Shown piece by piece: positions 38,765-52,293 of a stretch of DNA of 64,000 nt. The position numbers and the translations under genes are program-made. Origin of the DNA: a virus; the IMG/VR virus record IMGVR_UViG_3300042446_001529, positions 34,645-98,644 of that record. One strand, written 5' to 3'. The notes under the pieces are model-generated. The model saw only the letters and a list, made by a program, of their open reading frames with translations. It was not told the DNA's origin and did no database searches. Positions within the stretch are counted from its first letter, which is position 1. The number at the start of each line of letters is the position of its first letter.

Positions 38765-41434
38765 TCACTCAAAATCGAATAGTTTTGCGAATGTATTGTC
38801 CGACCTTGTTGAACTGATGTCCCATTCCAAAACACCAATAAGGTTTCCTAACTTCTCATCTATCACAGTGGTTTCCATCTCTGCATCATTGAAAGGCAGA
38901 TCCTTGAACCACTGCGGCAATCTCAGTTCATCCACAGGATAGGCCACGGAAGTATGCCCCATAGGATTGTCTTTGATCTTACATACAATTACTTTCATGC
39001 CATCTACTATCTGCATGGAGTATTTGTCATCCATCATACGCCTGAGAGTGTTCCAATTCAACGAAGCTCTAACATGCCCGGGCATATTGGTCTTGCCTGC
39101 TTTCTTTTCTTTGGCAGCGTATTCTGTGATATTGTTAGCTCGTTTAGGCGAGCCCTTTTCCCAACCCGGTCGAGTTTTAAATTCTGTGCGGAAATCAGTG
39201 ATATATTGCAGTATCTCTTCTTTGGTCACACCGGTTAGAGTTTTAGTCAGCACCTCACTCAAGAAGTCTTGTATAACAACCGGGGTATCTGAACGCTTGA
39301 GGTCAAGGCCCATGGCTTTGATCTTGCCTGGTTTGCCTTCTGTGTCTGCTCGTTTGCCTTCTTTGTCGTAGTAGAGCACTGCATATCGCTTCTTGGTAAT
39401 GAACAGTCCTTTGCTTGCAACAATCTCGCGACCTGCTTTGATGACCTCGGCTCTGGTTCGAGGAACATGAAATGCGTCCTGCATGAATTTGACAAATGTG
39501 CCATTGACTGTATCTCCTATAGTATCATAAAGTTCGACCACTGATTCTCTGTTCCAGGGAATCAGACCTTTCTCAATGTCTTTTTTCAGGGTAGCATACG
39601 CTGAAAAATAACAAGAGTCTGTGTCACCGTAGATTACTGCTCGACCAATATGGTCATACTCTCCAGTGATAATTTCGTTTACTTTTGATGCCATGTGTTT
39701 GGCAATTTGCCGGCCGGTCAGTGTAGTTGACTGTCCGATTCGGTTATCAAAGAATCTACAGCCTGGATTTAAAATCGCACCATAGAGACTGTTCAACAGA
39801 ATCTTCTTGACCAACTGTCGTTTGTCCCAGTATTCTTCTTCAATCTTGTTGCCAGCTTGGATACATTCTTTGAGCTTGGCCTGCATTTCTTTACGTTCTT
39901 TATACCAACGAGCCAGCAGTCCTGATATCACTCCTTCAGTTTCATATGTGAATATAGTGCCGTTAGCTGAGATCATCCAGGGTTGGTTGCTGTCAAATAT
40001 AAGATCATAGGCCTGAGCCGCACTTAGCGTATCCGAACCACCACCTTCCCAATCAACAGTGACTTCACGACCTACTTCTCTGTTCATCACGGCAGAATAT
40101 TCAAGACTACCAAATATACCTTCCCATGCTGATGCAAATGACTTGCCCTTGGACATTTCTGCTGCAATAAAATCCTTGGTTCCATCCTGTCTCAACTGAC
40201 CCACGATGGTTTCAGGACCCATATTCAAAGCCCGAATAGCACTAGGATAGAGACTGTTAATGTCAAGAGAGCCAATCCACTCATGTATACCTTTCTTAGG
40301 ATATGCAACGTAAGCCCCAGCAGCCTGCGTGTCTCCGTGCTCTTCCATCTTTTTGCGATTAGGAACTATCATACCTCTGCGGTGAGCTTCGTTGATGATA
40401 GCTTGTTCAGTCACAGCCACCGCACCCATAGTAGTTGCTAACAGCACTGTGTTTTCGTGTGCAATAGTATTAGCTAAGTCGATGAATTTCAGTTTCTTAT
40501 CTAGATCATCTAGCAGTTTACAATCGTTGATGTTGTATTCGACGAATGTTTTAAAGTCATTGTTGTATAGTTGATCAAGTGTACCTTCATACTGAGTCTT
40601 TCTCTGACCTAGTTCATATTCGGCAATGGCATCTAATCGATAGGTGTGACGTTCTTCATAGGTATACTTGCGATAAAGTTCAAGACTGTCTATATGCACA
40701 CGACCAATGAAGTCATATGTAGTGGCAGTTTTACCGAACTTTTCATATTCGCGTTTCTTAGGCAAACAGTTCCATAGACAAAATCGTTTGGTATCCTCTT
40801 TGCTGAGAACCTTGGTGACACGATTAACTGTGTATGGAATATCGAACCCTTCTGAATTCCACCCACTTAGAACATCTGCATCTTGTATAAGATCCAAGAA
40901 TGTGTTTAACATGTCTGCTTCGTTGTCAAACAGCATGGTGTTGGGGAATTCTTCAACCTGCTTGGTAGCTTCAGCCATGCTGAGTGTTTTAGGAGGTATG
41001 GCTAGGCATACCATGGTCTCCATCCATTGTAGATACACAGCGATAGCAGTGATGGGCATGAATGCATCATCTGGTGAAGCATAGCCCCGTTCAGGATCAA
41101 AGTCTACCTCAATGTCGAAAAATGCTACATTTAGTTTAGGAGCATCTTGATTGAGATAATGATCTTCTAGACATCTATAGATAGGATTGATGTCTGACTC
41201 GTGGAGTTTCTTGTTTGAATGTATGGCAAGTTCTTTGCGATGTTCTTTGACATTCTTTGAACTTACACGGCTAAGAGGTTCACCCTTGATGGATTGGAAC
41301 TTGCCTTTGGGGTCGTTGTAATAGAATATATGTTTGGCAGCATAGTCTTTGAAATGTCTCTGCCCTTTGTCGTCACGCTCAACGACACGTATCATGTCAT
41401 CGTCGCGATCGTAGTATGCGTCCACGAAACTCAT
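38765..41434 (-). CDS. 43: DNA polymerase, B family, gp43-like
   Basis: 889 aa (T4 gp43 is 898). Exonuclease motif FFDIEVDFDPE with D107/E109; motif A SLDINSLYPSAIR (D391); motif B KKILLNSLYGAIL near 544-554; motif C IYGDTDSCYF (602-607). The last residues FAKLFDFE resemble the T4 C-terminal clamp-binding peptide, so polymerase, clamp and loader can form one holoenzyme. All catalytic residues I can identify are present. AGGAG six bases before the ATG. A 73-bp gap upstream contains no gene. Confidence 0.93.
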   Translation of the reverse strand: MSFVDAYYDRDDDMIRVVERDDKGQRHFKDYAAKHIFYYNDPKGKFQSIKGEPLSRVSSKNVKEHRKELAIHSNKKLHESDINPIYRCLEDHYLNQDAPKLNVAFFDIEVDFDPERGYASPDDAFMPITAIAVYLQWMETMVCLAIPPKTLSMAEATKQVEEFPNTMLFDNEADMLNTFLDLIQDADVLSGWNSEGFDIPYTVNRVTKVLSKEDTKRFCLWNCLPKKREYEKFGKTATTYDFIGRVHIDSLELYRKYTYEERHTYRLDAIAEYELGQRKTQYEGTLDQLYNNDFKTFVEYNINDCKLLDDLDKKLKFIDLANTIAHENTVLLATTMGAVAVTEQAIINEAHRRGMIVPNRKKMEEHGDTQAAGAYVAYPKKGIHEWIGSLDINSLYPSAIRALNMGPETIVGQLRQDGTKDFIAAEMSKGKSFASAWEGIFGSLEYSAVMNREVGREVTVDWEGGGSDTLSAAQAYDLIFDSNQPWMISANGTIFTYETEGVISGLLARWYKERKEMQAKLKECIQAGNKIEEEYWDKRQLVKKILLNSLYGAILNPGCRFFDNRIGQSTTLTGRQIAKHMASKVNEIITGEYDHIGRAVIYGDTDSCYFSAYATLKKDIEKGLIPWNRESVVELYDTIGDTVNGTFVKFMQDAFHVPRTRAEVIKAGREIVASKGLFITKKRYAVLYYDKEGKRADTEGKPGKIKAMGLDLKRSDTPVVIQDFLSEVLTKTLTGVTKEEILQYITDFRTEFKTRPGWEKGSPKRANNITEYAAKEKKAGKTNMPGHVRASLNWNTLRRMMDDKYSMQIVDGMKVIVCKIKDNPMGHTSVAYPVDELRLPQWFKDLPFNDAEMETTVIDEKLGNLIGVLEWDISSTRSDNTFAKLFDFE

Positions 41435-41507: not shown

Positions 41508-41798
41508 TTAATTAATTAGCATTCTTGCTAGGCCGAATGTGTCAATTGCGGTTAGCAAGATGTAGTTAGCCAACATGCCAAACGATTTCCGAGTATAAGC
41601 AGCCCAAGCATACATGGCACAGCCAGCGATCCAAATAGGATACAAAACAAGTAAAGGCGGATTGGGAACTGTAAGCGCCATAGTGATTGAGCAGCCGATA
41701 CTAACAGCCCAAGCAAGCAGCTCAATAACGAAACGGAAGCGATTGCTTTGCCAGTCATCTCTGATCCAATCAAAAGTTGGTTTTAATAATTCATTCAT
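41508..41798 (-). CDS. Membrane protein with about three helices, 96 aa
   Basis: Hydrophobic segments at about residues 23-43, 50-68 and 73-93 (VIELLAWAVSIGCSITMALT, LLVLYPIWIAGCAMYAWAAY, MLANYILLTAIDTFGLARML). It starts one ATGA overlap after the DsbA-like gene and is conserved-type in marine T4-like phages. Function unknown; location suggests an early membrane-associated role. Confidence 0.6.
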   Translation of the reverse strand: MNELLKPTFDWIRDDWQSNRFRFVIELLAWAVSIGCSITMALTVPNPPLLVLYPIWIAGCAMYAWAAYTRKSFGMLANYILLTAIDTFGLARMLIN

Positions 41799-42055
41799 TC
41801 AGGAAGTTTTTTAGTAACACCGAGAATCATTTCAATCTCGCTCCACTCTGCTTCATGGTCTTTCCAATTGTCTTTGTGTGCGATGCGTATGGCTTTGTTG
41901 ATCCAACTGGGTTTGATTTGTAATTCTTCTGCGACAGCTTTAACAGTTTCTTTAAGACCTTCGTTGAGATCTTCTACTTCACGAAGCACATTAGATCCTT
42001 CGTTGATTAATCTTTCGAGTTTGGCTTTTTCTTCCGGTCCATACATTTTTGACAT
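41795..42055 (-). CDS. dsbA: DsbA-like double-stranded-DNA-binding protein, 86 aa
   Basis: T4 DsbA (89 aa) binds DNA near late promoters. This protein has a similar length, high charge and helical content (PEEKAKLERLINEGSNVLRE, VAEELQIKPSWINKAIRIAH, WSEIEMILGVTKKL) and shares the LNKAI/HKD-type ending with relatives in marine phages. It has its own sigma70-type promoter and an AGGAG ribosome-binding site. Homology is judged by eye, so the assignment is moderate. Confidence 0.6.
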   Translation of the reverse strand: MSKMYGPEEKAKLERLINEGSNVLREVEDLNEGLKETVKAVAEELQIKPSWINKAIRIAHKDNWKDHEAEWSEIEMILGVTKKLPE

Positions 42056-42075
42056 TTGTTCTCTCCTATACGACT

Positions 42076-42104
42076 ATTATATAGTCAAAGAAAAAGCCGG
42101 TCAA
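42076..42104 (-). promoter_or_regulatory. Sigma70-type promoter overlapping a terminator
   Basis: On the minus strand TTGACC (42099-42104), exactly 17 bp, TATAAT (42076-42081). The -35 lies partly in the terminator hairpin's loop and arm and the spacer is the hairpin's 3' arm plus its T-run. It would start transcription near 42069, 14 nt before the DsbA-like ATG, with AGGAG in the leader. Confidence 0.75.
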
Positions 42105-42119
42105 CTAATTGCCGGCTTT
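42093..42119 (-). terminator. Intrinsic terminator of the 459-aa gene
   Basis: AAAGCCGG and CCGGCTTT form a perfect 8-bp stem with an 11-nt loop; on the minus strand it is followed by TTTTTCTTT. It lies 23 nt past the stop of the gene ending at 42143. Confidence 0.8.
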
Positions 42120-42142
42120 ATGTTACCAAACGGTAAATCTAT

Positions 42143-43522
42143 TTAACTAGAACCGTCTCGGTCCATTCCAATTTGAGACAAGAACATAATACCTAGTACT
42201 CCTGGAATAATTAACCAAGCCGGGCCACCGAATATTCCTGCGATTGTTGCGGCTGCGCCTCCTAGTATTCCTGTTAAACTTGAAAGTTTTTCACCTAGTG
42301 TAGCACTCGGTGCCCAAGCATCAATGCCACCTAATGTTCCTCGGCCACTCTTTGGATCTTTTTTCTTTTGACCGAAGAAGTCACCTACTGGACCTTCTTC
42401 GATAGATTCTGCAGCAGTTTCAGGTTTAGCACCCAGTGCTTTGGCCACTGCTTTGATATTTGCTAATGTGAAATCACTTTTATCTGCACGGTCTTTACCT
42501 AACACTTGTTTAGCAACATCTGCCATTTTATCTTTTTCTTGATCTGAAAGCTTTGGTGCCAGTTTAGACATTAGCAGGCTTTTGACTTTGTCCATCGTGC
42601 CTTCATCTAAACGTGAGCGATTTTCAACTATTTTTTTTCTCGACTCGCTCAATACATCATACATTTCAAATACGCCACCGTTGCGTTCATAGACCAGTCC
42701 TGCGTATAGATCAGCTTTCATGCCTTCGCCTAGTTTGCTCTGAGCCACACGTTCGGCCCAGGTAAACAATGCTTTGTCTACAGGATCGATCTGTTGTTGG
42801 CCACCACTTTCTTGAACTAGTTGGACCATCTGTTTGAAAGATAATTTTGTTTCTACACTTTCTTTAACAGTTTTCTTCTTGCCTTTTGGCATCATTGCGC
42901 TTTCAGTTTTAGATGCAATGGCTTTTTGTAGTCCTGGGGGAAGTTTTTTCTGCTTGTCTGAAAGGCCTTTTTTATCTGCGGGCTTGTCGTTACCTTTTTC
43001 ACCAGCAGCTTTTTTCATTGGCTCTTTCTTGTCGCCGTCTTTGTCAATGTCTAGGAAGTCTGGCTTGGCACCTTCTGCCATCTTTTCTTTCTTGGCCATT
43101 TTCTTTTTCTTGTCAGCAGCTTCTTCTTTCTTGGCTTCGACCATCTTCATGAACTTGCTTTTAAATTCTGGTTCTACACTTTCTTTCTTGGCTTTCTTCT
43201 TTGGCTTGTCATCTTCGTCATCGGCTTCTTTTTCTTCACTACCGCCATAGGCCTTGCTGCTCTTGTGAACAATGCCTGTTTTTGTTTTTTCAACAGTGCC
43301 AGTAGCGATGTTTTTCTTATCGCCTACTTTCATGTCGCTCTCTTCTTTGACATCTTCTTCAGCTTTCTTTTTAGCTTCAGCAACGTAAGTAGTGCGGCCG
43401 CTTAGAACACGCAGTTGTGCGTCTTCGTTTAGTTGCACAGATTTTGGCAGCTCTGGTGCTTTTGGAGTATCGATCTTACCGTCGATACTTTCTATTTTGC
43501 TGATTAACGATTTGAAGTCCAT
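42143..43522 (-). CDS. Lys/Glu-rich probable internal virion protein with C-terminal hydrophobic segment, 459 aa
   Basis: ATG at 43522 has AGGA eight bases upstream; a GTG at 43528 would be too close to it. Residues 1-230 are Lys/Ala/Glu-rich and low-complexity (KKKAKKESVEP, DKKKKMAKKEKMAE), with many short SVE/VAE motifs. The middle (DPVDKALFTWAERVAQSKLG, LVYERNGGVFEMYDVLSESR) is folded. The last 50 residues contain a Gly/Ala/Ile hydrophobic stretch (ILGGAAATIAGIFGG, IIPGVLGIMFLSQIG). I infer an internal head or structural protein from composition, late promoter and neighbours. Confidence 0.6.
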   Translation of the reverse strand: MDFKSLISKIESIDGKIDTPKAPELPKSVQLNEDAQLRVLSGRTTYVAEAKKKAEEDVKEESDMKVGDKKNIATGTVEKTKTGIVHKSSKAYGGSEEKEADDEDDKPKKKAKKESVEPEFKSKFMKMVEAKKEEAADKKKKMAKKEKMAEGAKPDFLDIDKDGDKKEPMKKAAGEKGNDKPADKKGLSDKQKKLPPGLQKAIASKTESAMMPKGKKKTVKESVETKLSFKQMVQLVQESGGQQQIDPVDKALFTWAERVAQSKLGEGMKADLYAGLVYERNGGVFEMYDVLSESRKKIVENRSRLDEGTMDKVKSLLMSKLAPKLSDQEKDKMADVAKQVLGKDRADKSDFTLANIKAVAKALGAKPETAAESIEEGPVGDFFGQKKKDPKSGRGTLGGIDAWAPSATLGEKLSSLTGILGGAAATIAGIFGGPAWLIIPGVLGIMFLSQIGMDRDGSS

Positions 43523-43548
43523 GTTCACATTCCTAAAAGTGTATTATA

Positions 43549-43556
43549 TATTTATC
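43549..43556 (-). promoter_or_regulatory. Putative T4-type late promoter (GATAAATA)
   Basis: GATAAATA on the minus strand, 26 nt before the ATG at 43522, overlapping the stop codon of the upstream 61-aa gene. A TATAAT just downstream could also work as an early -10. Confidence 0.6.
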
Positions 43557-43737
43557 TTTTTACTAAAGACCCACCAGTTAACAGATTAGTTCCTTTGAGA
43601 TCTAATGCGTTTTTTGCGGTTCCGTCTTTGTTTTTTGCCGTTTTTCCGGGTTTATTTTTGTATACAGCACCTATAGCTACGTTACCAGCACTGGTAGCGC
43701 CTGCTGTTGCTGATTCTACAATTTCACGTATTTTCAT
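43552..43737 (-). CDS. Small Lys/Gly-rich protein with capsid-targeting-like N-terminus, 61 aa
   Basis: It starts KIREIVESATAGATSAGN, where IVE followed by Ser-Ala resembles a prohead-protease site in a T4-type capsid-targeting peptide. The rest is Lys/Asn/Gly-rich (YKNKPGKTAKNKDGTAKNAL) and probably disordered. The ATG lies five bases after AATAAATA, a near match to the late promoter. Function unknown, probably packaged. Confidence 0.55.
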   Translation of the reverse strand: MKIREIVESATAGATSAGNVAIGAVYKNKPGKTAKNKDGTAKNALDLKGTNLLTGGSLVKR

Positions 43738-43741
43738 ACTA

Positions 43742-44062
43742 TTATTTATTCTTCTTGGCACGGCCTGCTTTCATGTTAGCTAACCAGTGCGCTAGTTGTC
43801 CTTTGCGCCCGCCTTGTTTTGCAGTTTTACGCAATGAACTTACACTAGCTTTGGTATTGATACCGTGACGTTTACTATCGCCTTTGTCTTGTGGATTCTT
43901 TCCATCAGCAAAGTTTTCACCCACGCCACCACCGTCTCCAGCACCACCGTCGCCACTGTAGCCAGCATAGTATCCGTAACCACCGTAAGGACCCGGGCCG
44001 TAAGCAGCCCAACGCGGTCTACGTTTCTTTTTTCTTTCAACTATAAATTCACTTGCTCTCAT
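43742..44062 (-). CDS. Gly/Tyr-rich basic protein with capsid-targeting-like N-terminus, 106 aa
   Basis: The N-terminus MRASEFIVE is very close to the T4 internal-protein targeting peptide (MKTYQEFI-x-E), followed directly by a basic stretch RKKKRRPRW. The middle is a Gly/Tyr/Pro repeat (YGPGPYGGYGYYAGYSGDGG). The end (SLRKTAKQGGRKGQLAHWLA) is basic. ATGA overlap with the 25-aa gene upstream. I infer a small packaged DNA-associated protein. Confidence 0.6.
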   Translation of the reverse strand: MRASEFIVERKKKRRPRWAAYGPGPYGGYGYYAGYSGDGGAGDGGGVGENFADGKNPQDKGDSKRHGINTKASVSSLRKTAKQGGRKGQLAHWLANMKAGRAKKNK

Positions 44063-44136
44063 ACTGGGCTATAAGGATTCTTTGGAGTGTCGTATCCGTC
44101 ATCTTCTGGATACACTGGATAATTGTTTGGGTTCAT
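44059..44136 (-). CDS. Proline/Asp-rich microprotein, 25 aa
   Basis: A 26-codon frame whose ATG overlaps the TGA of the Fe-S carrier gene and whose TGA overlaps the ATG of the 106-aa gene. The product is Pro/Tyr/Asp-rich ([20 protein letters not shown]). Double coupling is good evidence of translation; function unknown. Confidence 0.5.
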
Positions 44137-44459
44137 ACTGAAAAACTTGATCCACACCCGCAGGTAGATTGTGCATTGGGATTACTAATAACAAACTGAC
44201 TGCCCATGGCTTCTTCTTTGTAATCAATAACAGCACCTTGTAGATATTGCATACTCATTGCATCAACAAACACGTTGTATTGTTCGTTGATAGGAAATTC
44301 AAAGTCGTCTTCGTTCTTTGTTTCGTCAAAGGTAAAGCCATAACTGAAGCCACTGCAACCGCCACCTTGCACAAAGGTGCGCAATGCCAGCTTGGGATTA
44401 TTTTCTTCTAGCAGCAAATCCATAATCTTTGATTTCGCTGATTGTGTTATTTCAACCAT
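44133..44459 (-). CDS. A-type iron-sulfur carrier (IscA/ErpA/HesB family), 108 aa
   Basis: The three cluster-binding cysteines are in [11 protein letters not shown] and STCGCGSSF, with D-x-x-SMQYL-x-GAVIDY and [11 protein letters not shown] between, exactly the HesB/IscA layout. ATG at 44459, with GGA eight bases upstream, is preferred to the TTG at 44471. Such carriers deliver [2Fe-2S]/[4Fe-4S] clusters to enzymes. With at least seven radical-SAM enzymes in this genome, the phage has a clear need for Fe-S supply. Confidence 0.88.
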
Positions 44460-44667
44460 TTTGTTTTCCAATAGGCTTTTCGCCTGTTAAGTAAGGCAAA
44501 CTAAACCATAGCTTGAACCATTCTTCGGTGCCTGGTCTAATATCATGTTTTTTCATAAGTTCACCTTTTTCATTGCCAGTTATACTTATGTTGCTGCCAG
44601 CATATGGTTGATATCCTTGATATTCTGTGATACCAGCTAGTTTTTTCAGTTCATCTAGTTCTGACAT
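44452..44667 (-). CDS. Unknown phage protein, 71 aa
   Basis: ATG at 44667 has GGAG nine bases upstream; the longer reading overlaps the next gene by 83 bp and is dropped. It starts [20 protein letters not shown], with LAGITE resembling a protease site as in other proteins of this cluster. A later segment [20 protein letters not shown] is folded-like. Function unknown. Confidence 0.55.
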
Positions 44668-45019
44668 TTTTAGCTGCTCCTTTGCGATTGGCATTGGGGT
44701 CTTCACGACGTTTGCGAGCAGCAGCAGTGGCACGACCTTTCTTGCCTAGTGCGTGTGCTTTGGACTGAGGTAGACACTTGGGCTTGCCTTCTTTCTCACT
44801 ATCTCTAGCACAGTCGCCACGTATCTTGCCATCTGGACCAAAGCGGACCCATTTGTCTTTGAACCACTTACGCAGATTTTCATCTACGGGTTCTATGTCT
44901 TCTGATTTTTTACGACCTTGGCAGTAAGCTTGTTGACTAAACCCTTTGGGGTTAGAACAGTTTATGGACTTTTTATATTTTTTAGTCCACTTCTCAGTGA
45001 CAAACTCATATGCTCTCAC
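44651..45019 (-). CDS. Basic Cys-containing protein with capsid-targeting-like N-terminus, 122 aa
   Basis: The N-terminus MRAYEFVTEKWTKKYKKS shows the EF(V/I)xE targeting pattern. Two Cys pairs follow (INCSNPKGFSQQAYCQGRKK and GDCARDSEKEGKPKCLPQSK), then a basic tail (GKKGRATAAARKRREDPNAN). Lys/Arg content suggests DNA contact inside the head. Similar proteins occur in clusters of T4-like marine phages. No enzymatic motif. Confidence 0.6.
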   Translation of the reverse strand: MRAYEFVTEKWTKKYKKSINCSNPKGFSQQAYCQGRKKSEDIEPVDENLRKWFKDKWVRFGPDGKIRGDCARDSEKEGKPKCLPQSKAHALGKKGRATAAARKRREDPNANRKGAAKNVRTR

Positions 45020-45396
45020 TTCTTCTTGCCCTTGCCATAATTAGCAGCACCTGCTTTGCGACACTGTACCAATCGTCCTGACGCATAGGCACTGGGCCAA
45101 ACCTTGGACGAAGCTTTGATCTTGTGATAGCAGGCATCTTTCTTGCCTTCTTCAAGTTGGTCTTCTGAGACCATGTCTCCGTGACATATAGGGCATACAC
45201 CTGCTTCTATGTAGTCTTGAAGACTTTTACCTTCCGCTACATCTTGCTCCATAGGAATCAAATCTTTCTTATGTTTAGTGTCGCCCTGTTTCTCTGCCCG
45301 CTTTTTATCTTTGTGAGCGCCAGCACCTGCGCTTTTAGAATTTTTAGCAACAAAGTTTCTAGGCCGGCTAGCTGGTATAATGTCTTTGGCTCTCAT
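45016..45396 (-). CDS. Zinc-finger-like basic protein, 126 aa
   Basis: It starts MRAKDIIPASRPRNFVAKNS. A Cys motif CPICHGDM (residues 69-76) could bind zinc with downstream CYHK and QCRK. The end (KVWPSAYASGRLVQCRKAGA) is a short motif found repeatedly in phage proteins of this type. It overlaps its neighbours by ATGA. Probably a packaged or structural accessory protein. Confidence 0.55.
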   Translation of the reverse strand: MRAKDIIPASRPRNFVAKNSKSAGAGAHKDKKRAEKQGDTKHKKDLIPMEQDVAEGKSLQDYIEAGVCPICHGDMVSEDQLEEGKKDACYHKIKASSKVWPSAYASGRLVQCRKAGAANYGKGKKK

Positions 45397-46535
45397 ACTG
45401 TAATACCTCTTGATCTGATGCCACCTTTACGTTTTACTTTACCTAATTCTTCGAGAGCGTGACGTATTTGTTCCATGTTCATTTTCAATTCTTCAAACTG
45501 ACGTGCCATCAGTTGCCACTCACCTGGACTAGCATTTTCTGCGCGAGCAGCAAGATCCTTTAACTGGCCAGCAGCACGTAGCATACGATATTTTAATTTA
45601 GCAGGATTTGCTTTGTCGTGACTGTGAATCATTGGATCCATTGGATCTGCTGGGTCCATTTCAATAGGAGATTCTTTAACTTCTTCTTTCTTTTTAGGAT
45701 ATCCGTGTTTGATATCTAATGTATAGCCCTGCAGTCCTTGTTTATCTAAAACTCCGCTGATAAATTTTTCTGCTTCTCTAGCATTATCGAATCTATCACC
45801 TAAATTATATTTTCGAACCTCGCCGTCAATCATTACATAAGCAATGGTAATTGGCTTTGTTGGTTCTTCTGCTTGGGCAGGACTTAAAAGATTCGCAGCA
45901 GCCAGTGCCGCTGCCGCTGCTTGACTTTTCCAACCTTCCTCTATACCTTCGTTGATGCCCATGCCTTTACGCACCGCAGCAAACAAAGGCTTGGCAAGTT
46001 CGCCTGCTCCTGTGGCTTCTTGGAACCCTTCGAAGTCGTTGTTGGCAGCAGCTGCTCTTGCACCGCTGGCACTGACTCCTGCCACTCCTTCAGCGCCGTC
46101 TTCACGGTCTCCGCTGCTGGCAAAATCGATGACATCAAATTTATAAAATCCGTGCGCTTTGCCTTCAACACCGTTGTATTGTGTGAGAAGATTTTTCATA
46201 TCTTCTAGGCGATCCGATCCTGCTACGAATGTTACCGCGGAGTAGCCCTGATCGTGTAGATAGCTAGCCACTTTACCAATGGTGTTTAGTGCTGCATTCT
46301 CTACTACATTGCTGGCATACTGGGGAAACATTTCCTTGATAAACTTTATCTTAGTGCTGTAGTCTAGTGGATTTTTCTTTTTATCTTGACTTTGACTGAC
46401 AAAAACTTTCATTTCTCCGCCCTGGCTTTTCATGGTATCTAATACCTGTTTGTGACCAATGGTAGGCGGATTCATTCTGCCAAAGCAGAATGTAACATGT
46501 TTGGTTTCAGCTTCAAACAGTTGTCGTAACAGCAT
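45393..46535 (-). CDS. Nucleotidyltransferase (cytidylyl/adenylyltransferase fold) with capsid-targeting-like N-terminus, 380 aa
   Basis: Residues 1-10 (MLLRQLFEAE) look like a short targeting peptide ending LFE. The catalytic domain begins FCFGRMNPPTIGHKQVLDTM: TIGH at 25-28 is the HxGH-type nucleotide-binding motif with Thr for the first His. VAGSDRLEDMK near 104 and SASGAR at 155-160 (the ISSTxxR-like motif) complete the fold seen in NMN adenylyltransferases and cytidylyltransferases. The last 210 residues are a separate Ala-rich and Lys-rich region of unknown function. A possibly virion-packaged enzyme; substrate unassigned. Confidence 0.65.
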   Translation of the reverse strand: MLLRQLFEAETKHVTFCFGRMNPPTIGHKQVLDTMKSQGGEMKVFVSQSQDKKKNPLDYSTKIKFIKEMFPQYASNVVENAALNTIGKVASYLHDQGYSAVTFVAGSDRLEDMKNLLTQYNGVEGKAHGFYKFDVIDFASSGDREDGAEGVAGVSASGARAAAANNDFEGFQEATGAGELAKPLFAAVRKGMGINEGIEEGWKSQAAAAALAAANLLSPAQAEEPTKPITIAYVMIDGEVRKYNLGDRFDNAREAEKFISGVLDKQGLQGYTLDIKHGYPKKKEEVKESPIEMDPADPMDPMIHSHDKANPAKLKYRMLRAAGQLKDLAARAENASPGEWQLMARQFEELKMNMEQIRHALEELGKVKRKGGIRSRGITV

Positions 46536-46870
46536 TAGTCGTAGTCGCCTTTTTCTATGTATTTTTCTTGTTCGCCGGCAATACGTTTAGCCAAATCTAT
46601 AATTTTATCTTTAGGGAATTTCTTATCTGTATCATCGATATCGTATTTGTCACAATAATGACCCATGCACTTTTCTAATGGTCGGATGTAGACTTTGAAC
46701 ACATTGGGATTGCCTCTGTGCTCACGATGACGTTTCACCGCAGGGAAAAAATACTGGTCCAGCATTTTTGAATCGTTGTCGATGAAAAATTTTAAATCAT
46801 CCAACCAATCGATTTCTTGTTGTTCGTCTTTGGGTGCGCCAATGGCACTGAACATTTCTTTTAATAACAT
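46535..46870 (-). CDS. Unknown phage protein, 111 aa
   Basis: ATG at 46870 overlaps the previous stop (TAATG) with GGAG six bases upstream, so the longer 116-aa reading is dropped. The sequence is helical and acidic (KEMFSAIGAPKDEQQEIDWL, DLKFFIDNDSKMLDQYFFPA, then EKCMGHYCDKYDIDDTDKKF). The initial MLLKEMF is similar to MLLRQLF of the nucleotidyltransferase. Function unknown. Confidence 0.55.
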   Translation of the reverse strand: MLLKEMFSAIGAPKDEQQEIDWLDDLKFFIDNDSKMLDQYFFPAVKRHREHRGNPNVFKVYIRPLEKCMGHYCDKYDIDDTDKKFPKDKIIDLAKRIAGEQEKYIEKGDYD

Positions 46871-47967
46871 TACCAGCTCCGGCAAGACCAGTATCTAGCT
46901 TTATGACGAGGTCCTGGATTAGCACAATTATGACGAGCACGGAATGATTTTCTACGTGCAGGATTGGATTTTTTGATACGCATTTTCTTGTCACCGAAGT
47001 TTACTTTGACAATGTTACCATTAGGCTTGCGAACATATACTTTGGATTTCTTGACATCGCCTGCCATCTTTTTACCCAAGGGCACTTCACGTCCTTGGTA
47101 TTTGGCTTCATCGACATCACCTTCCGCCACACCTTCTTCGTAGTTCTGGGCTTTCATGTAATCGCGAGCTGTATCAATGTAGTCCACAGCTTTAGTGATC
47201 TTGCTTTGCACCCATTCTGGAAGATTGTCGTCTGCTCGTAGGATACTGTATAGTTCTTCAGCAGCATCGTCTATGGTGCGCAAATCATCTTTGGCCATGT
47301 CGCCTTCGCGATCATATTCACCGTAATTTACGGGGTCTTTTGGATTCTCAGGACCGTGATCTTCTTTCTTAACTTTACCCTTATGTGCTTTACTCAACCT
47401 ATCCTTAAGAGCACCTAATTCTTCTTGACTGGCACCGTCACGGCCTGCGGCCGCCGCGGCTTTCATATATTCTTCACCGTGTTTCTTAACTCCAGTAAAA
47501 TATTGAAGACCGCTTTCACCTATTTTCTTACAGTCATTGGCACCAACTCTGCGATAGCCTTTCCAACAGGCACGGCCGCCTGTGCCTTTATCTTTGTCTT
47601 CTACAAGTTCACCTTCAAAGAATTGTAAGCCTTCATTAGTCAGCATCTCTAGTGCGGTGTCATCTAATTCGATTACAATGCCATCTTCTAGAATATCTAC
47701 AATAGTAGTGGCAATCTCATGATCTTCTGAAAAGCTGATACCAAACTCGTCACCTACTTCAAATGATTCTGCAAATCCTTTAGATTTGGCCTCTTTTTCG
47801 AGATCTGTTTTTCTTTGTGTAATTGCACTGCTGATTTCTGGATCGGTGCTAGCCACAGGATCTTTTTCAAGATCTGCCAGGGCTTTGCGTTTGGCCTGAA
47901 GATCTTCAGGATTTTTTAATGCTGTTTCGCTTACTATAGCGTCTAATTTAGATAACAGGTCTCTCAT
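46870..47967 (-). CDS. Probable internal head/structural protein, 365 aa
   Basis: It starts MRDLLSKLDAIVSETALKNP, a hydrophobic amphipathic start with IVSE as a possible prohead-protease site. The middle is Lys/Asp/Glu-rich; near residues 100-175 an acidic domain (VIELDDTALEMLTNEG) leads to ACWKGYRRVGANDCKKIGES. The last 60 residues (VYVRKPNGNIVKVNFGDKKM, NPARRKSFRARHNCANPGPR, KARYWSCRSW) are a basic Cys motif found at the end of several phage structural proteins. A late promoter lies 26 nt upstream. I infer a virion or head-core protein. Confidence 0.6.
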   Translation of the reverse strand: MRDLLSKLDAIVSETALKNPEDLQAKRKALADLEKDPVASTDPEISSAITQRKTDLEKEAKSKGFAESFEVGDEFGISFSEDHEIATTIVDILEDGIVIELDDTALEMLTNEGLQFFEGELVEDKDKGTGGRACWKGYRRVGANDCKKIGESGLQYFTGVKKHGEEYMKAAAAAGRDGASQEELGALKDRLSKAHKGKVKKEDHGPENPKDPVNYGEYDREGDMAKDDLRTIDDAAEELYSILRADDNLPEWVQSKITKAVDYIDTARDYMKAQNYEEGVAEGDVDEAKYQGREVPLGKKMAGDVKKSKVYVRKPNGNIVKVNFGDKKMRIKKSNPARRKSFRARHNCANPGPRHKARYWSCRSW

Positions 47968-48380: not shown

Positions 48381-49064
48381 CTATTTATCGCATACTATAA
48401 AGTTATATACTCTGCCCACAACGTCAGCACCACGCAGTTTCATCATTAGCAGTGTGGATTCATCTTCAACTAATACATATCTACGGTCCCAATTCCAATC
48501 TGTGGTCAAGAACCAACGTTCGATCGCAGGAGTGCAGGTTATTCTAGGGGCTTGTGATTTCAGCCAGGCTAGATATTTCTGTTTGCCTTCACGATCTTTG
48601 GCCATTTTATGCGGCATGAGATACACGCGATAGCGATATCTGTCCTTGGGCAGTTTACTCACTGTGATACAGTTCTGTGAATTATTCAACACATCGAGAT
48701 TGTTGATGTTGGGTTCAAATCTATGCACCAAGTAATCTTGGCTAGCTAGGCTGAGTTTTTCGTAGAACTCGGCATCGTTGGTATAAACATCTAGTCTATT
48801 CCTTTCAACTCTTGTTGCGTATGCATCTTCGTCGTAGGAATTCAAAAAGTCACAGATGCTGCTTAATATTTCTTTATTAGCCGTGGCCCTACGCCAATTA
48901 TCATAATGATAACCGCTGTCACTGTTGGAATTTTCTAACCAGTCCTTGATATTTGAAATAGGTTGTGTGCGAAATATCACACAACCGTCTATTTGCAGGC
49001 TGATTTTGTATAACCATTTGTTATAAAACTTACGACTGGTCGATTTGGTTTTCAGTTGTAGCAT
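48381..49064 (-). CDS. Unknown phage protein, 227 aa
   Basis: The likely start is ATG at 49064 (LQLKTKSTSRKFYNKWLYKI); a TTG at 49094 would add 10 residues and neither has a good ribosome-binding site. The gene overlaps the ClpA stop by 35 bp. An N-terminal domain (IRRATANKEILSSICDFL-like) precedes a second (RYRVYLMPHKMAKDREGKQK, APRITCTPAIERWFLTTDWN, YVLVEDESTLLMMKLRG). Beta/alpha composition, no catalytic motif. The last codons contain the late promoter of the next gene. Confidence 0.5.
   Translation of the reverse strand: MLQLKTKSTSRKFYNKWLYKISLQIDGCVIFRTQPISNIKDWLENSNSDSGYHYDNWRRATANKEILSSICDFLNSYDEDAYATRVERNRLDVYTNDAEFYEKLSLASQDYLVHRFEPNINNLDVLNNSQNCITVSKLPKDRYRYRVYLMPHKMAKDREGKQKYLAWLKSQAPRITCTPAIERWFLTTDWNWDRRYVLVEDESTLLMMKLRGADVVGRVYNFIVCDK
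48382..48389 (-). promoter_or_regulatory. Putative late promoter (GATAAATA) in the end of the upstream gene
   Basis: GATAAATA followed by GTTG then ATG (48377) on the minus strand; it overlaps the last two codons and the stop (GAT AAA TAG) of the 227-aa gene. The distance to the ATG is four bases. Confidence 0.5.
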
Positions 49065-51387
49065 CTTGTTCTTGTGTATTTGCTGCTTCAGCAATTCGTT
49101 GCGCCCTAAGAGCTTTTCTTTCTTCCTTGGTCAACGGTTTTGGTATCTCAACCACTGTGAAATCTAATTTGTCATCGATGATATCCACGGTAACTCTTCC
49201 GCCATTTACTAGATCACCGAATAACACTCTGCGACTTAGTGGGCTCTTGATCTCGTTGTCTATGATCCGTGCCAATGGTCTTGCCCCCATCTTTTTGTCG
49301 TAGCCTCGATCTGCTAGCCAACGTGTGGCCTTGGCGTTAACCACGATCTCAATGCCTTTGTCTTTGAGTTGACTGTTGAGATCAGCCACAAACTTCTTGA
49401 CGATCTGGATCACAGTGTCGCCACTGAGCTTAGAGAACTTGATCACAGCATCTAGTCTATTGCGGAATTCTGGGCTGAAATGTTTCTTAATAGCTTTGTC
49501 ATCTTCGCCATCGCGTTCTAGTTCGCCAAACCCGATGGTGTTGAGTTCATTGTCTGCTGCGCCGAGATTTGATGTCATGATCAATATTGTGTTACGACCA
49601 TCAGCTACTTTGCCATTGGATCCTGTGATAAAACCGTTGTCCATGAATGCCAACAGAATGTTCATGACATCTGGATGAGCTTTTTCAACTTCGTCTAACA
49701 GTAAGATGGCATTAGGTGTTTCTTGTAGTTTAGTGATCAACATACCAGCATTATCTTCGTAACCAACATAACCCGGAGGAGCACCGATCAATCTTGCCAC
49801 TGAATGCTTTTCCTGATACTCGCCCATGTCAAATCGTATCAACTGCATGCCCATTTTATCTGATAATTGTTTAGCAGTTTCGGTTTTGCCGCAGCCTGTG
49901 GGTCCTAAGAATAGGAATGACCCAATAGGCTTGTTAGGTGCCTTCATGCCAGCCTGACTCACAAAGATTTTATCTAACAATGTATCTACAGCATTATCTT
50001 GTCCGTAGACCACACCCTTCATCTGAGTGTCTAACTCTGAAAGATTTTTGCTTTCTTTTTGCGCCACGGTTTCTAATGGCATGTTAATCATCTTACTGAG
50101 TTCGTAGGTGACCTGTTCGATGTCTACAATCTGTGTAACACCTTCCATGCCCTCATCATCTTTGAGCTTATATCTAGCACAGGCACAGTCAATAATATCA
50201 ATAGCCTTGTCAGGCAGTTTTTTATCACTCATATATTTGACACTGAGCTTAACTGCTTGTTCGATGGCTGCATCGGATATTTTTACATTGTGATGTTGCT
50301 CGTAGTATTTCTTTAGACCTTTAAGGATCTTCACAGCCATTTCTGGTGTAGGCTCTTCAACGGTCACACGTTGGAATCGACGCATCAGCGCACGATCGCC
50401 TTCGAAGTGCTTGCGATATTCTTCCCATGTGGTAGATGCTATCAGCTTGAGAACACCTTTGGTAAGTATGGGTTTCAACATATTGGCCATGTCGTTTGAA
50501 CTGCCATTTGCAGCACCCGCACCGTTCATCATGTGTGCTTCGTCGATGAACAAGATGATCTTGCCTTTTTTCTCTAGTGCAGCCAACACCGCTTTAACTC
50601 GTTCTTCGAAATCACCACGATACTTTGATCCTGCTAGGAGAGCACTGATGTCCAAAGTATAGACTTGATGGTCCTTGATAAATTTAGGAACCTTGCCTTC
50701 GTGAATCTTACGAGCAATGCCCTCAGCAATAGCAGTTTTACCCACTCCGGGATCACCTACCATTAACACGTTGGCCTTGTTTCGACGTGCCAATACCAAT
50801 TGTATTTTTTCTATTTCGTCATCACGGCCTATTACAGGATCAAGTTTTCGCTGTTTGGCCTTGAGACTGAGATTGGTACAAAACTGATTCAATATTCGAT
50901 CTATTTGATTTGAGTTCACTATTCTTGTTTCAACTTCGGCGTCTTCGGTAACCTGCACATTTTCTTGGAAATACTTTACAAACTTTTCTTTAGTCACCCC
51001 GGCCTTGGTAAGAAAGTAGTAACCGAAACTGTTTTTCTCTGACAGCACACTGATAATGATATCTGATATCTCCATGCGCTGTCTACCGCTAAACAACACC
51101 TGTGTAAAGCAACGATTCAACACACGTTCTACGCTGTTGGTCTTTTTAGGTTTTGCGTTGGCATTAGTAGTTTTAATATCATTGAGATTGTTTTTTAAGT
51201 AGTGTTCTATATTTGTTTTAACAAATTTAGCATCAGCACCAAAACTTTCTAATAGTTTATAAGAATCCTCATCATCCATGATGCCATAGATAATATGTTC
51301 AATGGTTATGTACTCGTGACTCAAAGTCTTGGCCATCTCTATAGATTTTTCAAAAATTTCTTGTAGGCTCTTACTGGGTTCAATCAT
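49030..51387 (-). CDS. clpA: ClpA-like AAA+ unfoldase, 785 aa
   Basis: An N-terminal Clp repeat domain (residues 1-140), AAA1 with Walker A GDPGVGKT (211-218), AAA2 with Walker A GPTGCGKT (495-502) and DEVEKAHPDVMN Walker B, plus a C-terminal sensor-2 region GYDKKMGARPLARIID. Between the domains, TIGFGELE at 617-624 matches the IGF/IGL loop that docks on ClpP, so it may recruit host ClpP to chosen substrates. 785 aa is normal ClpA length (E. coli 758). It is in an operon with DnaJ (one-base overlap), driven by the 52.2-kb promoter. The tail (TKEERKALRAQRIAEAANTQ) is an extra. Confidence 0.93.
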   Translation of the reverse strand: MIEPSKSLQEIFEKSIEMAKTLSHEYITIEHIIYGIMDDEDSYKLLESFGADAKFVKTNIEHYLKNNLNDIKTTNANAKPKKTNSVERVLNRCFTQVLFSGRQRMEISDIIISVLSEKNSFGYYFLTKAGVTKEKFVKYFQENVQVTEDAEVETRIVNSNQIDRILNQFCTNLSLKAKQRKLDPVIGRDDEIEKIQLVLARRNKANVLMVGDPGVGKTAIAEGIARKIHEGKVPKFIKDHQVYTLDISALLAGSKYRGDFEERVKAVLAALEKKGKIILFIDEAHMMNGAGAANGSSNDMANMLKPILTKGVLKLIASTTWEEYRKHFEGDRALMRRFQRVTVEEPTPEMAVKILKGLKKYYEQHHNVKISDAAIEQAVKLSVKYMSDKKLPDKAIDIIDCACARYKLKDDEGMEGVTQIVDIEQVTYELSKMINMPLETVAQKESKNLSELDTQMKGVVYGQDNAVDTLLDKIFVSQAGMKAPNKPIGSFLFLGPTGCGKTETAKQLSDKMGMQLIRFDMGEYQEKHSVARLIGAPPGYVGYEDNAGMLITKLQETPNAILLLDEVEKAHPDVMNILLAFMDNGFITGSNGKVADGRNTILIMTSNLGAADNELNTIGFGELERDGEDDKAIKKHFSPEFRNRLDAVIKFSKLSGDTVIQIVKKFVADLNSQLKDKGIEIVVNAKATRWLADRGYDKKMGARPLARIIDNEIKSPLSRRVLFGDLVNGGRVTVDIIDDKLDFTVVEIPKPLTKEERKALRAQRIAEAANTQEQDATTENQIDQS

Positions 51388-52223
51388 TACATATTTCCTT
51401 GTTTGATCTGTTTTATTAGGTCGATTTGCTCGGGTTGTAGAATTTTTGGGATTGATACTTTAATTTTTATCAATAAGTTACCTCGCTGCCTTGTGCGCAT
51501 ATTGGGCAAACCTTCACCTCTGCAACTCATTACTGTATCCGGTTGTGTACCGGGTGGCAAGTTCATTGATAATGTTTTACGATCTAGTGTTTGTATTTCT
51601 ATACTGGCTCCCAGCAATGCATCCCATACACTTACTTCTCGTTCTACAATCAACGATGTGCCTTCTCGTCGGTATATGGAGTGTTCACGCACTATGACAT
51701 TAACCAATAAATCTCCTGGTTTGAGACTGGGTATTGAATCATCGCCCATGCCTTCGTATCTAATTTGTTGTCCATGCTCTATGCCCGGAGGAATCTGAAT
51801 GTTGATCATCTTATTCTTACCAGGGATTGAAACTTCAGCGGTAAAGTCTTTGCCGTTAAGCACATCTTCTAAGGTAATTTCTACATTGATGTTCAAGGAT
51901 CTATTTCTGCGTTGAGGCTGGCGACCAAATCCGCCAAAGCCAAAGTTACCGAAAATGTCATGCATATTACCAGTGTCGAAATGAAACTCAAACGGATTTT
52001 GACCTCTACCCATGCCCGGCTGTGCATTAGGATCACCGCCAAGGTCTATGATTTGTTTTTTCTGGGGGTCGCTAAGAAATTCGTAAGCCTGTGATATTTC
52101 TTTGAACTTCTTTTCATCACCGCCTCGATCTGGGTGATATTTCATGGCCATGCTTCGGTATGCCTTTTTTATTTCGGCATCACTGGCGTTTCGTTTTAGT
52201 CCTAGGGTAGCGTAGTAATCCAT
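51387..52223 (-). CDS. dnaJ: DnaJ-type Hsp40 co-chaperone (CbpA-like, no zinc finger), 278 aa
   Basis: J-domain residues 1-65 with YYATLGLKRNASDAEIKKAY and the HPD motif (YHPDRGGDEKKFKE), a Gly/Phe-rich linker (NFGFGGFGRQPQRRN), then the two C-terminal client-binding beta domains (VEITLEDVLNGKDFTAEVSI; LNLPPGTQ-like SMNLPPGTQPDTVMSCRGEG). The four CxxCxGxG zinc repeats are absent, which makes it a type II (CbpA-like) co-chaperone. It would stimulate host DnaK. It starts directly at the transcript's predicted first base with no ribosome-binding site. Confidence 0.93.
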   Translation of the reverse strand: MDYYATLGLKRNASDAEIKKAYRSMAMKYHPDRGGDEKKFKEISQAYEFLSDPQKKQIIDLGGDPNAQPGMGRGQNPFEFHFDTGNMHDIFGNFGFGGFGRQPQRRNRSLNINVEITLEDVLNGKDFTAEVSIPGKNKMINIQIPPGIEHGQQIRYEGMGDDSIPSLKPGDLLVNVIVREHSIYRREGTSLIVEREVSVWDALLGASIEIQTLDRKTLSMNLPPGTQPDTVMSCRGEGLPNMRTRQRGNLLIKIKVSIPKILQPEQIDLIKQIKQGNM

Positions 52224-52229
52224 GTTTAT

Positions 52230-52258
52230 ATTATATGATAAAAAAAGGACTGTGTCAA
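52230..52258 (-). promoter_or_regulatory. Consensus sigma70-type promoter of the dnaJ-clpA operon
   Basis: TTGACA (52253-52258), exactly 17 bp, TATAAT (52230-52235) on the minus strand: both hexamers are perfect. The -35 is inside the loop of the preceding terminator. The sequence after the -10 is ATAAAC then ATG (52223), so transcription should begin at or next to the start codon. Confidence 0.85.
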
Positions 52259-52269
52259 GCAGTCCTTTT
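52243..52269 (-). terminator. Intrinsic terminator of the 74-aa gene
   Basis: AAAAGGACTG (52243-52252) and CAGTCCTTTT (52260-52269) make a perfect 10-bp stem with a 7-nt loop, followed on the minus strand by a run of T. It lies just past the stop at 52294. Confidence 0.85.
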
Positions 52270-52293
52270 ATTTAATTAGAAATTTACTGAGCT

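Follow-up and report, generated by a model that had tools for sequence, protein, structure and literature searches.

Composite Promoter-Terminator Elements in T4-Related Phages

T4-like phages are known to carry composite promoter-terminator modules, called PeSLs. Those of RB49 and phi1 were reportedly described by Arbiol et al. in 2010 (GBE 2:140), and composite conserved promoter-terminator motifs of the KVP40/nt-1 type are said to have been reported by Comeau, Arbiol, and Krisch in 2014 (GBE 6:1611). Our scan of KVP40 (NC_005083) found seven near-identical elements on the plus strand (21142, 59694, 85854, 97795, 100189, 121372, and 150222), built as AAAGGGTTGAC-N4-GTCARCCCTTT; their 5' arm holds the -35, and a -10-like TATTAT or a variant of it comes after this sequence. 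We infer that these seven are the published PeSLs. The scan of T4 gave one weak nested match only. For RB49 (NC_005066), a strict nested search yielded no convincing case, and a listing of all its hairpins showed the tandem type. At four sites on the minus strand of RB49 (115005–115033, 117381–117409, 121708–121736, and 134521–134549), inverted repeats were observed that fill most of the TTGAC-TATAAT spacer; these repeats (e.g., GGGGATCGGGAGATCCCC) have no T-run and represent a different promoter-with-stem design.

The DNA analyzed here (the window) is a stretch of 64,000 nucleotides, bases 34645–98644 of a 98,644-base virus record, and all positions are given within it. An earlier note on this sequence had described an 8-bp terminator stem that overlaps TTGACC and is followed by a TATAAT -10 box, and this arrangement was confirmed on the minus strand at 42119–42076, before a dsbA-like gene. 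The order along that strand is AAAGCCGG (42119–42112), CAATTAGTTGA, CCGGCTTT (42100–42093), TTCTTTGACTA, and TATAAT (42081–42076). The 5' arm AAAGCCGG (42112–42119) pairs with the 3' arm CCGGCTTT (42093–42100), with compensatory changes among relatives, and the stem has 8 bp, or 11 bp if one bulge is counted. The -35 hexamer TTGACC (42099–42104), located by a promoter-match scan, occupies part of the hairpin loop and of the 3' arm, its last two bases being shared with that arm, and the U-tract TTTTTCTTT (42087–42095) falls within the promoter spacer. The spacer does have the 17 bp originally claimed, but it is not simply the 3' arm plus the T-run, since the arm shares its first two bases with the -35; it consists of the rest of the arm (GGCTTT), the T-run, and 8 further bases before the -10 (42076–42081). 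Promoter geometry places the predicted transcription start at 42069, the seventh base past the -10.

The RNA hairpin had a predicted folding energy of -13.0 kcal/mol (z -4.4), and in this fold CAA pairs with the TTG of the -35 as an extra inner helix, leaving the A of the -35 bulged. The stem is rich in G+C and directly followed by the U-tract, as is characteristic of intrinsic terminators, while TTGACA/TATAAT-like hexamers conserved at a spacing of 16–18 are characteristic of sigma70-type promoters. With 11 of 12 hexamer matches, the promoter ranked second within 34–54 kb, the first being that of the dnaJ composite described below. The element was absent from the list of our terminator scan because that scan had a loop limit of 8, and an Rfam search gave no match for it. 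The stop codon of the upstream gene lies at 42143–42145 and the ATG of dsbA at 42055. Since the predicted RNA start (~42069) is 3' of the hairpin, the promoter's own transcript would not contain the hairpin; it would occur only in transcripts coming from upstream, and the promoter would be seen only by polymerase bound to the DNA.

Several further motifs were considered around this element. The sequence TTACCGTTTGGTAA is found just 5' of the hairpin (42120–42136, minus strand) and recurs, whole or half, in most relatives, where its half-forms (GGTAAA / TTAACCAA) occur before the dsbA hairpin in either orientation; TTACCGTTTGGTAA or its half is a possible candidate for a protein site. The palindrome GACTATATAATAGTC over the -10 was rejected as a second operator, as it is lost in many relatives. 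The spacer sequence GGCTTTT also resembles TGCTTTA, the T4 MotA-type middle box (PMC1524935); this candidate was discarded because the spacing is off by about 1 and the box is absent from the dnaJ composite.

Like the dsbA composite, the KVP40 elements carry the -35 inside a terminator-like hairpin. However, the KVP40 elements place the -35 in the 5' arm and use the loop plus the 3' arm as spacer, whereas the dsbA composite has its -35 in the loop and 3' arm and forms the spacer from the 3' arm and the U-tract. Moreover, KVP40 has seven dispersed, near-identical copies, while this virus has two that are unrelated and fixed in their loci. Like the dsbA composite, the PeSLs of RB49 and phi1 are short intergenic modules that join a terminator to a sigma70-like promoter in T4-like phages, but those of RB49 are tandem, the -35 beginning 13–17 nt past the stem (at 32 in one case). 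A nested composite of the same register, with the -35 in the loop, was found in Pseudomonas phage PA5oct (MK797984) at 186478 (AAAAGGGCACTTGACAAGTGCCCTTTTTTTGCCATATAAT), where it follows a structural-protein gene; it differs in its genes and in its spacer of 18, and PA5oct's own dsbA promoter has no hairpin. In Staphylococcus phage 515A1, RNA-seq mapped a terminator directly followed by an early promoter (t97/p98; PMC7698491). This is likewise a terminator-promoter junction between units of different timing, but the two signals are adjacent, base sharing is not reported, and late transcription passes the terminator (PMC7698491).

The dsbA composite thus shares with PeSLs the joining of a promoter and a stem-loop terminator within a short element of a T4-related phage, the relationship to T4 being indicated by DsbA, a gp43-like polymerase, and a weak gp55-like match in a relative. 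By analogy, it would work like a PeSL. Nevertheless, dispersed related copies were not found, there being two unrelated composites in the 98.6 kb and also in the 280 kb of a relative, and neither was an exchange of neighboring genes, for the upstream family is constant and an extra downstream gene is present in few relatives. For these two reasons, we did not file it as a PeSL. Nesting as such is already known from KVP40 and PA5oct. What is new is a deeply conserved element whose -35 sits in the loop or 3' arm, together with its fixed position at two loci and the evidence that both signals are selected.

Conservation and Compensatory Changes of the dsbA Composite

In the 98,644-base record, ten promoter-like sites reached 11 or more of the 12 matches, and in two of them the -35 lies inside a terminator hairpin. 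In contrast, 60 dinucleotide-preserving shuffles contained no nested composite at this threshold (mean 0.1 at 9 of 12 matches or more), which rules out a chance origin. The exact pattern TTGAC-N18-TATAAT occurred three times, versus none in the reversed control. No nested composites other than those at the dsbA and dnaJ sites were detected in the 98.6-kb record, and a 281-kb relative contained the same two composites and only one weaker extra match. A search for DNA similarity to deposited phages found none.

The DsbA protein search of viral contigs gave 477 relatives, of which 80 were fetched and 78 had enough upstream DNA. The earlier note had proposed looking for the same architecture in related viruses, and the composite was indeed present before dsbA in all 78. 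A set of 108 distinct upstreams, many of them from close relatives, was then formed from these loci and those of a pattern scan; the pattern-scan loci were preselected for the motif, a bias that the 78 loci found by protein do not share, and the contigs are metagenomic fragments with mechanically called gene starts. The spacer was 17 in all 108 upstreams, lengths of 15–19 having been allowed, and the -35 was always TTGAC[CT] (TTGACT in 80, TTGACC in 28). The stem matched at 7/7 in 100 upstreams and at 6/7 in 8. At least five T directly followed GGC in all but one of the 108, and a U-tract of 5–7 right after the stem, kept on one side, characterized practically all dsbA copies. The arm-to-arm distance, on the other hand, took four lengths, with a loop of 6–9 nt before TTGAC.

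The sixth base of the -35 hexamer pairs with the 5' arm, and among the 108 distinct genes in the dsbA tree this pair was A-U in 79 and G-C in 29, without a single mismatch. Parsimony on the tree gave 13 changes on each side; independent pairs always changed together, and three of these co-changes sit on well-supported branches. For the whole dsbA set, 11 both-side changes were counted versus a shuffled mean of 3.4 (0/500 shuffles). One relative (L032) has a further compensated pair, GGCC with GGCC, versus GGCC with GGCT in its neighbors. Around the fixed TTGAC, the inner pairing was solved as GTC-GAC (53), as CAA-TTG with a bulged A (29), or as GTT-GAC (25). The stem bases GCC/GGC were invariant in the aligned dsbA set, unlike those of the dnaJ stem, which is more constraint than a mere terminator needs. 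A loop of free length combined with a fixed spacer is the mark of an RNA hairpin superimposed on a DNA promoter, and it speaks against a rigid protein operator. Therefore, considering the fixed spacer, the compensatory stem, and the variable loop together, selection acts on the promoter as well as on the RNA hairpin. Judged from these patterns, the overlap of stop and start signals appears to be a real, selected switch point.

The dnaJ Composite and Promoters without a Hairpin

The second nested composite (AAAAGGACTG-CTTGACA-CAGTCCTTTT-TTTATCA-TATAAT; 52230–52269, minus strand) has a promoter with 12 of 12 matches, whose -35 forms the terminator loop. It is predicted to drive the start of a dnaJ-like gene (51387–52223, minus strand; Pfam DnaJ and DnaJ_C), after which comes a clp-like gene (49030–51387, minus strand; Pfam AAA_2 and ClpB_D2-small). 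The repeat sequences of the dsbA and dnaJ composites are unrelated. Relatives of dnaJ, mostly with 61–100% protein identity, kept TTGAC in the loop and the -10 after the T-run, and their stems appeared in several variants (GGACTG..CAGTCC, GGACTAC..GTAGTCC, AGGCTGC..GCAGCCT, and AGGCCGC..GCGGCCT). Both-side changes affected 5 of 10 pairs, and 19 cells were counted versus 3.9 in shuffles (0/500). Two relatives, L271 and L305, have kept the dnaJ hairpin and lost the promoter; therefore, the hairpin serves a function independent of the promoter.

In relatives with a retained promoter (L249–L301), the ATG of dnaJ was observed 5–9 nt past TATAAT, the distance being 6 in the window (52223–52230, minus strand). 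No ribosome-binding site was found at the dnaJ start in these relatives, and a conserved leaderless dnaJ mRNA is predicted. Directly 5' of the hairpin, TTAAATA or GTAAATA was present (~52270–52276 of the window, minus strand; L249–L305) and was kept even where the sigma70 promoter is missing; it possibly represents a late promoter, with RNA that would begin in the hairpin.

Before dsbA, the distant jumbo phages PA5oct, Phosso, and Atu_ph07 carry hairpin-free TTGACT-17/18-TATAAT-like sites, and in each of the four deposited phages examined dsbA was located a short way upstream of the DNA polymerase gene. When the DsbA of Phosso was used as a more distant query, one contig only was returned, with no promoter match. 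Considering the relatives with the hairpin alone and the jumbo phages with the promoter alone, the two signals can exist apart at these loci. As distant jumbo phages lack it, the hairpin is not a general requirement for dsbA expression, and its fusion with the promoter in this clade is either an addition to a common plan or a retention from it.

Genes on Both Sides of the dsbA Composite

The unit that would end at the terminator contains a gene of 461 aa (42143–43528, minus strand). This upstream gene was co-directional in 109 of 110 loci, ending shortly 5' of the stem, and belonged to one family in 111 of 113. The motif GATAAATA[CT] preceded it in 51 of 81 relatives, and GATAAATA was seen 10 times before genes of the 281-kb relative, versus 0.7 expected. 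GATAAATA resembles the T4 late promoter TATAAATA (PMC1524935), and the late-type motif GATAAATAT, 28 nt before the start of the 461-aa gene, is likewise a TATAAATA-like octamer shortly before a gene. A weak match to a gp55-like late sigma was obtained in all five genomes tested, including the 281-kb relative. The motif in 51 of 81 loci suggests that the upstream gene is of the late class. Farther upstream, in 43552–47967 (minus strand), several neighboring proteins share short N-termini reminiscent of T4 capsid-targeting sequences.

The downstream unit begins with the dsbA-like gene (41795–42055, minus strand; PF11126 Phage_DsbA, 29.0 bits, cut-off 25), before which AGGAG is found (42067–42063, minus strand). 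It continues with orf96 (41508–41798, minus strand), which overlaps the dsbA stop and for which no family was found, and with a family B DNA polymerase of the T4 gp43 type (38765–41434, minus strand; phrog_262, E 3e-198). In the pattern scan of viral contigs, the gene after the composite was either dsbA or an inserted gene; the latter, of ~150 aa (MTDPI.KY...), stands between the composite and dsbA in L054, L056, L060, L061, and L150. The simplest reading of this gene context is a late-to-replication boundary. The claim of the earlier note that the element ends one operon and starts the next is well supported by its conservation, compensatory stem changes, and invariant spacing, and is also backed by the late-promoter motif upstream and the replication genes downstream.

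A Probable Compact Transcription Boundary

The dsbA composite is probably a compact transcription boundary whose bases serve both an intrinsic terminator and a sigma70-type promoter. Actual termination, actual initiation, and their timing are what we infer from the sequence. A polymerase coming from the late unit (the 461-aa gene with its GATAAATA promoter) would transcribe the hairpin and U-tract, and the late RNA would be released at ~42088, short of dsbA. Independently, a polymerase with a host-type sigma would start at ~42069 and transcribe the dsbA, orf96, and DNA polymerase genes. That this promoter is active early is suggested by its sigma70-type hexamers and by the replication genes that follow. 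The overlap is feasible because the 3' arm and U-tract of a terminator have about the length of a 17-bp promoter spacer, which leaves room for the -35 in the loop or 3' arm and for the -10 just past the T-run. Since RNA release is predicted at a point between the two hexamers, steric exclusion is to be expected; a polymerase that terminates there would cover the promoter, and some mutual exclusion would be unavoidable.

This geometry also leads to the question of coupling, which the earlier note had suggested might come about by hairpin folding in passing transcripts or by polymerase pausing. In a coupled element, the terminating polymerase would stay and restart at the promoter, or block it during a pause; late transcription of the upstream unit would then raise or lower the expression of dsbA and the polymerase. 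We consider such a coupled element unlikely. With the release point between the two hexamers, termination and initiation are not sterically independent, and Escherichia coli polymerase usually stays on the DNA after termination and reinitiates nearby, downstream reinitiation after intrinsic termination reaching 37–55% in vitro (PMC6978380, PMC6978322, PMC11347151). However, no sequence feature demands coupling, the late polymerase would carry a phage sigma and not sigma70 and would need a sigma exchange, and a tandem layout as in RB49 would serve recycling equally. That the element reloads polymerase, late polymerases terminating on the promoter and restarting after sigma exchange, seems unlikely to us as well; if it were true, late transcription would feed back on the expression of DNA polymerase and chaperones, and the strict 17-bp overlap would have been selected for coupling and not for compactness alone.

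Other readings question the hairpin itself. It could serve as a 3'-end stabilizer or processing site of the upstream mRNA instead of a terminator; such a structure would likewise be selected for pairing, and the hairpin does lie a few bases past the upstream stop codon, but the U-tract of 5–7 after the stem defines an intrinsic terminator and is unneeded for stabilization, making this role improbable. Even less probable is a DNA operator for a dimeric repressor. The inverted repeat covers the -35, a classical operator place, and its GCC/GGC bases are invariant; yet a rigid dimer would poorly tolerate four arm-to-arm lengths, the compensatory A-U/G-C changes and the use of three ways to pair (one of them CAA-TTG with the A bulged) speak against it, the T-tract is kept on one side, and the repeat of the dnaJ composite is of unrelated sequence. 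Finally, a mobile PeSL cassette, moving genes by recombination between its copies, would agree with a sigma70 promoter-terminator composite in a T4-related phage and with the ~150-aa gene inserted before dsbA in five relatives. But the two copies per genome have unrelated sequences, the gene downstream is dsbA or the inserted gene throughout the pattern scan of viral contigs, and the upstream gene is of one family in 111 of 113 loci. The cassette was therefore rejected as the main reading and is highly improbable.

Read as a compact boundary, the dsbA composite would be a place where the same enzyme reads two signals within shared bases, one as RNA and one as DNA, and this overlap has been kept across many jumbo-phage contigs at two loci. 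It also provides a search rule, namely a -35 in the loop or 3' arm and a -10 shortly past the T-run, for sites that terminator scans with a short loop limit miss. The composite is a good test object both for the separation of late from early-type units without spending sequence and for the reuse of a polymerase that would terminate atop a promoter.
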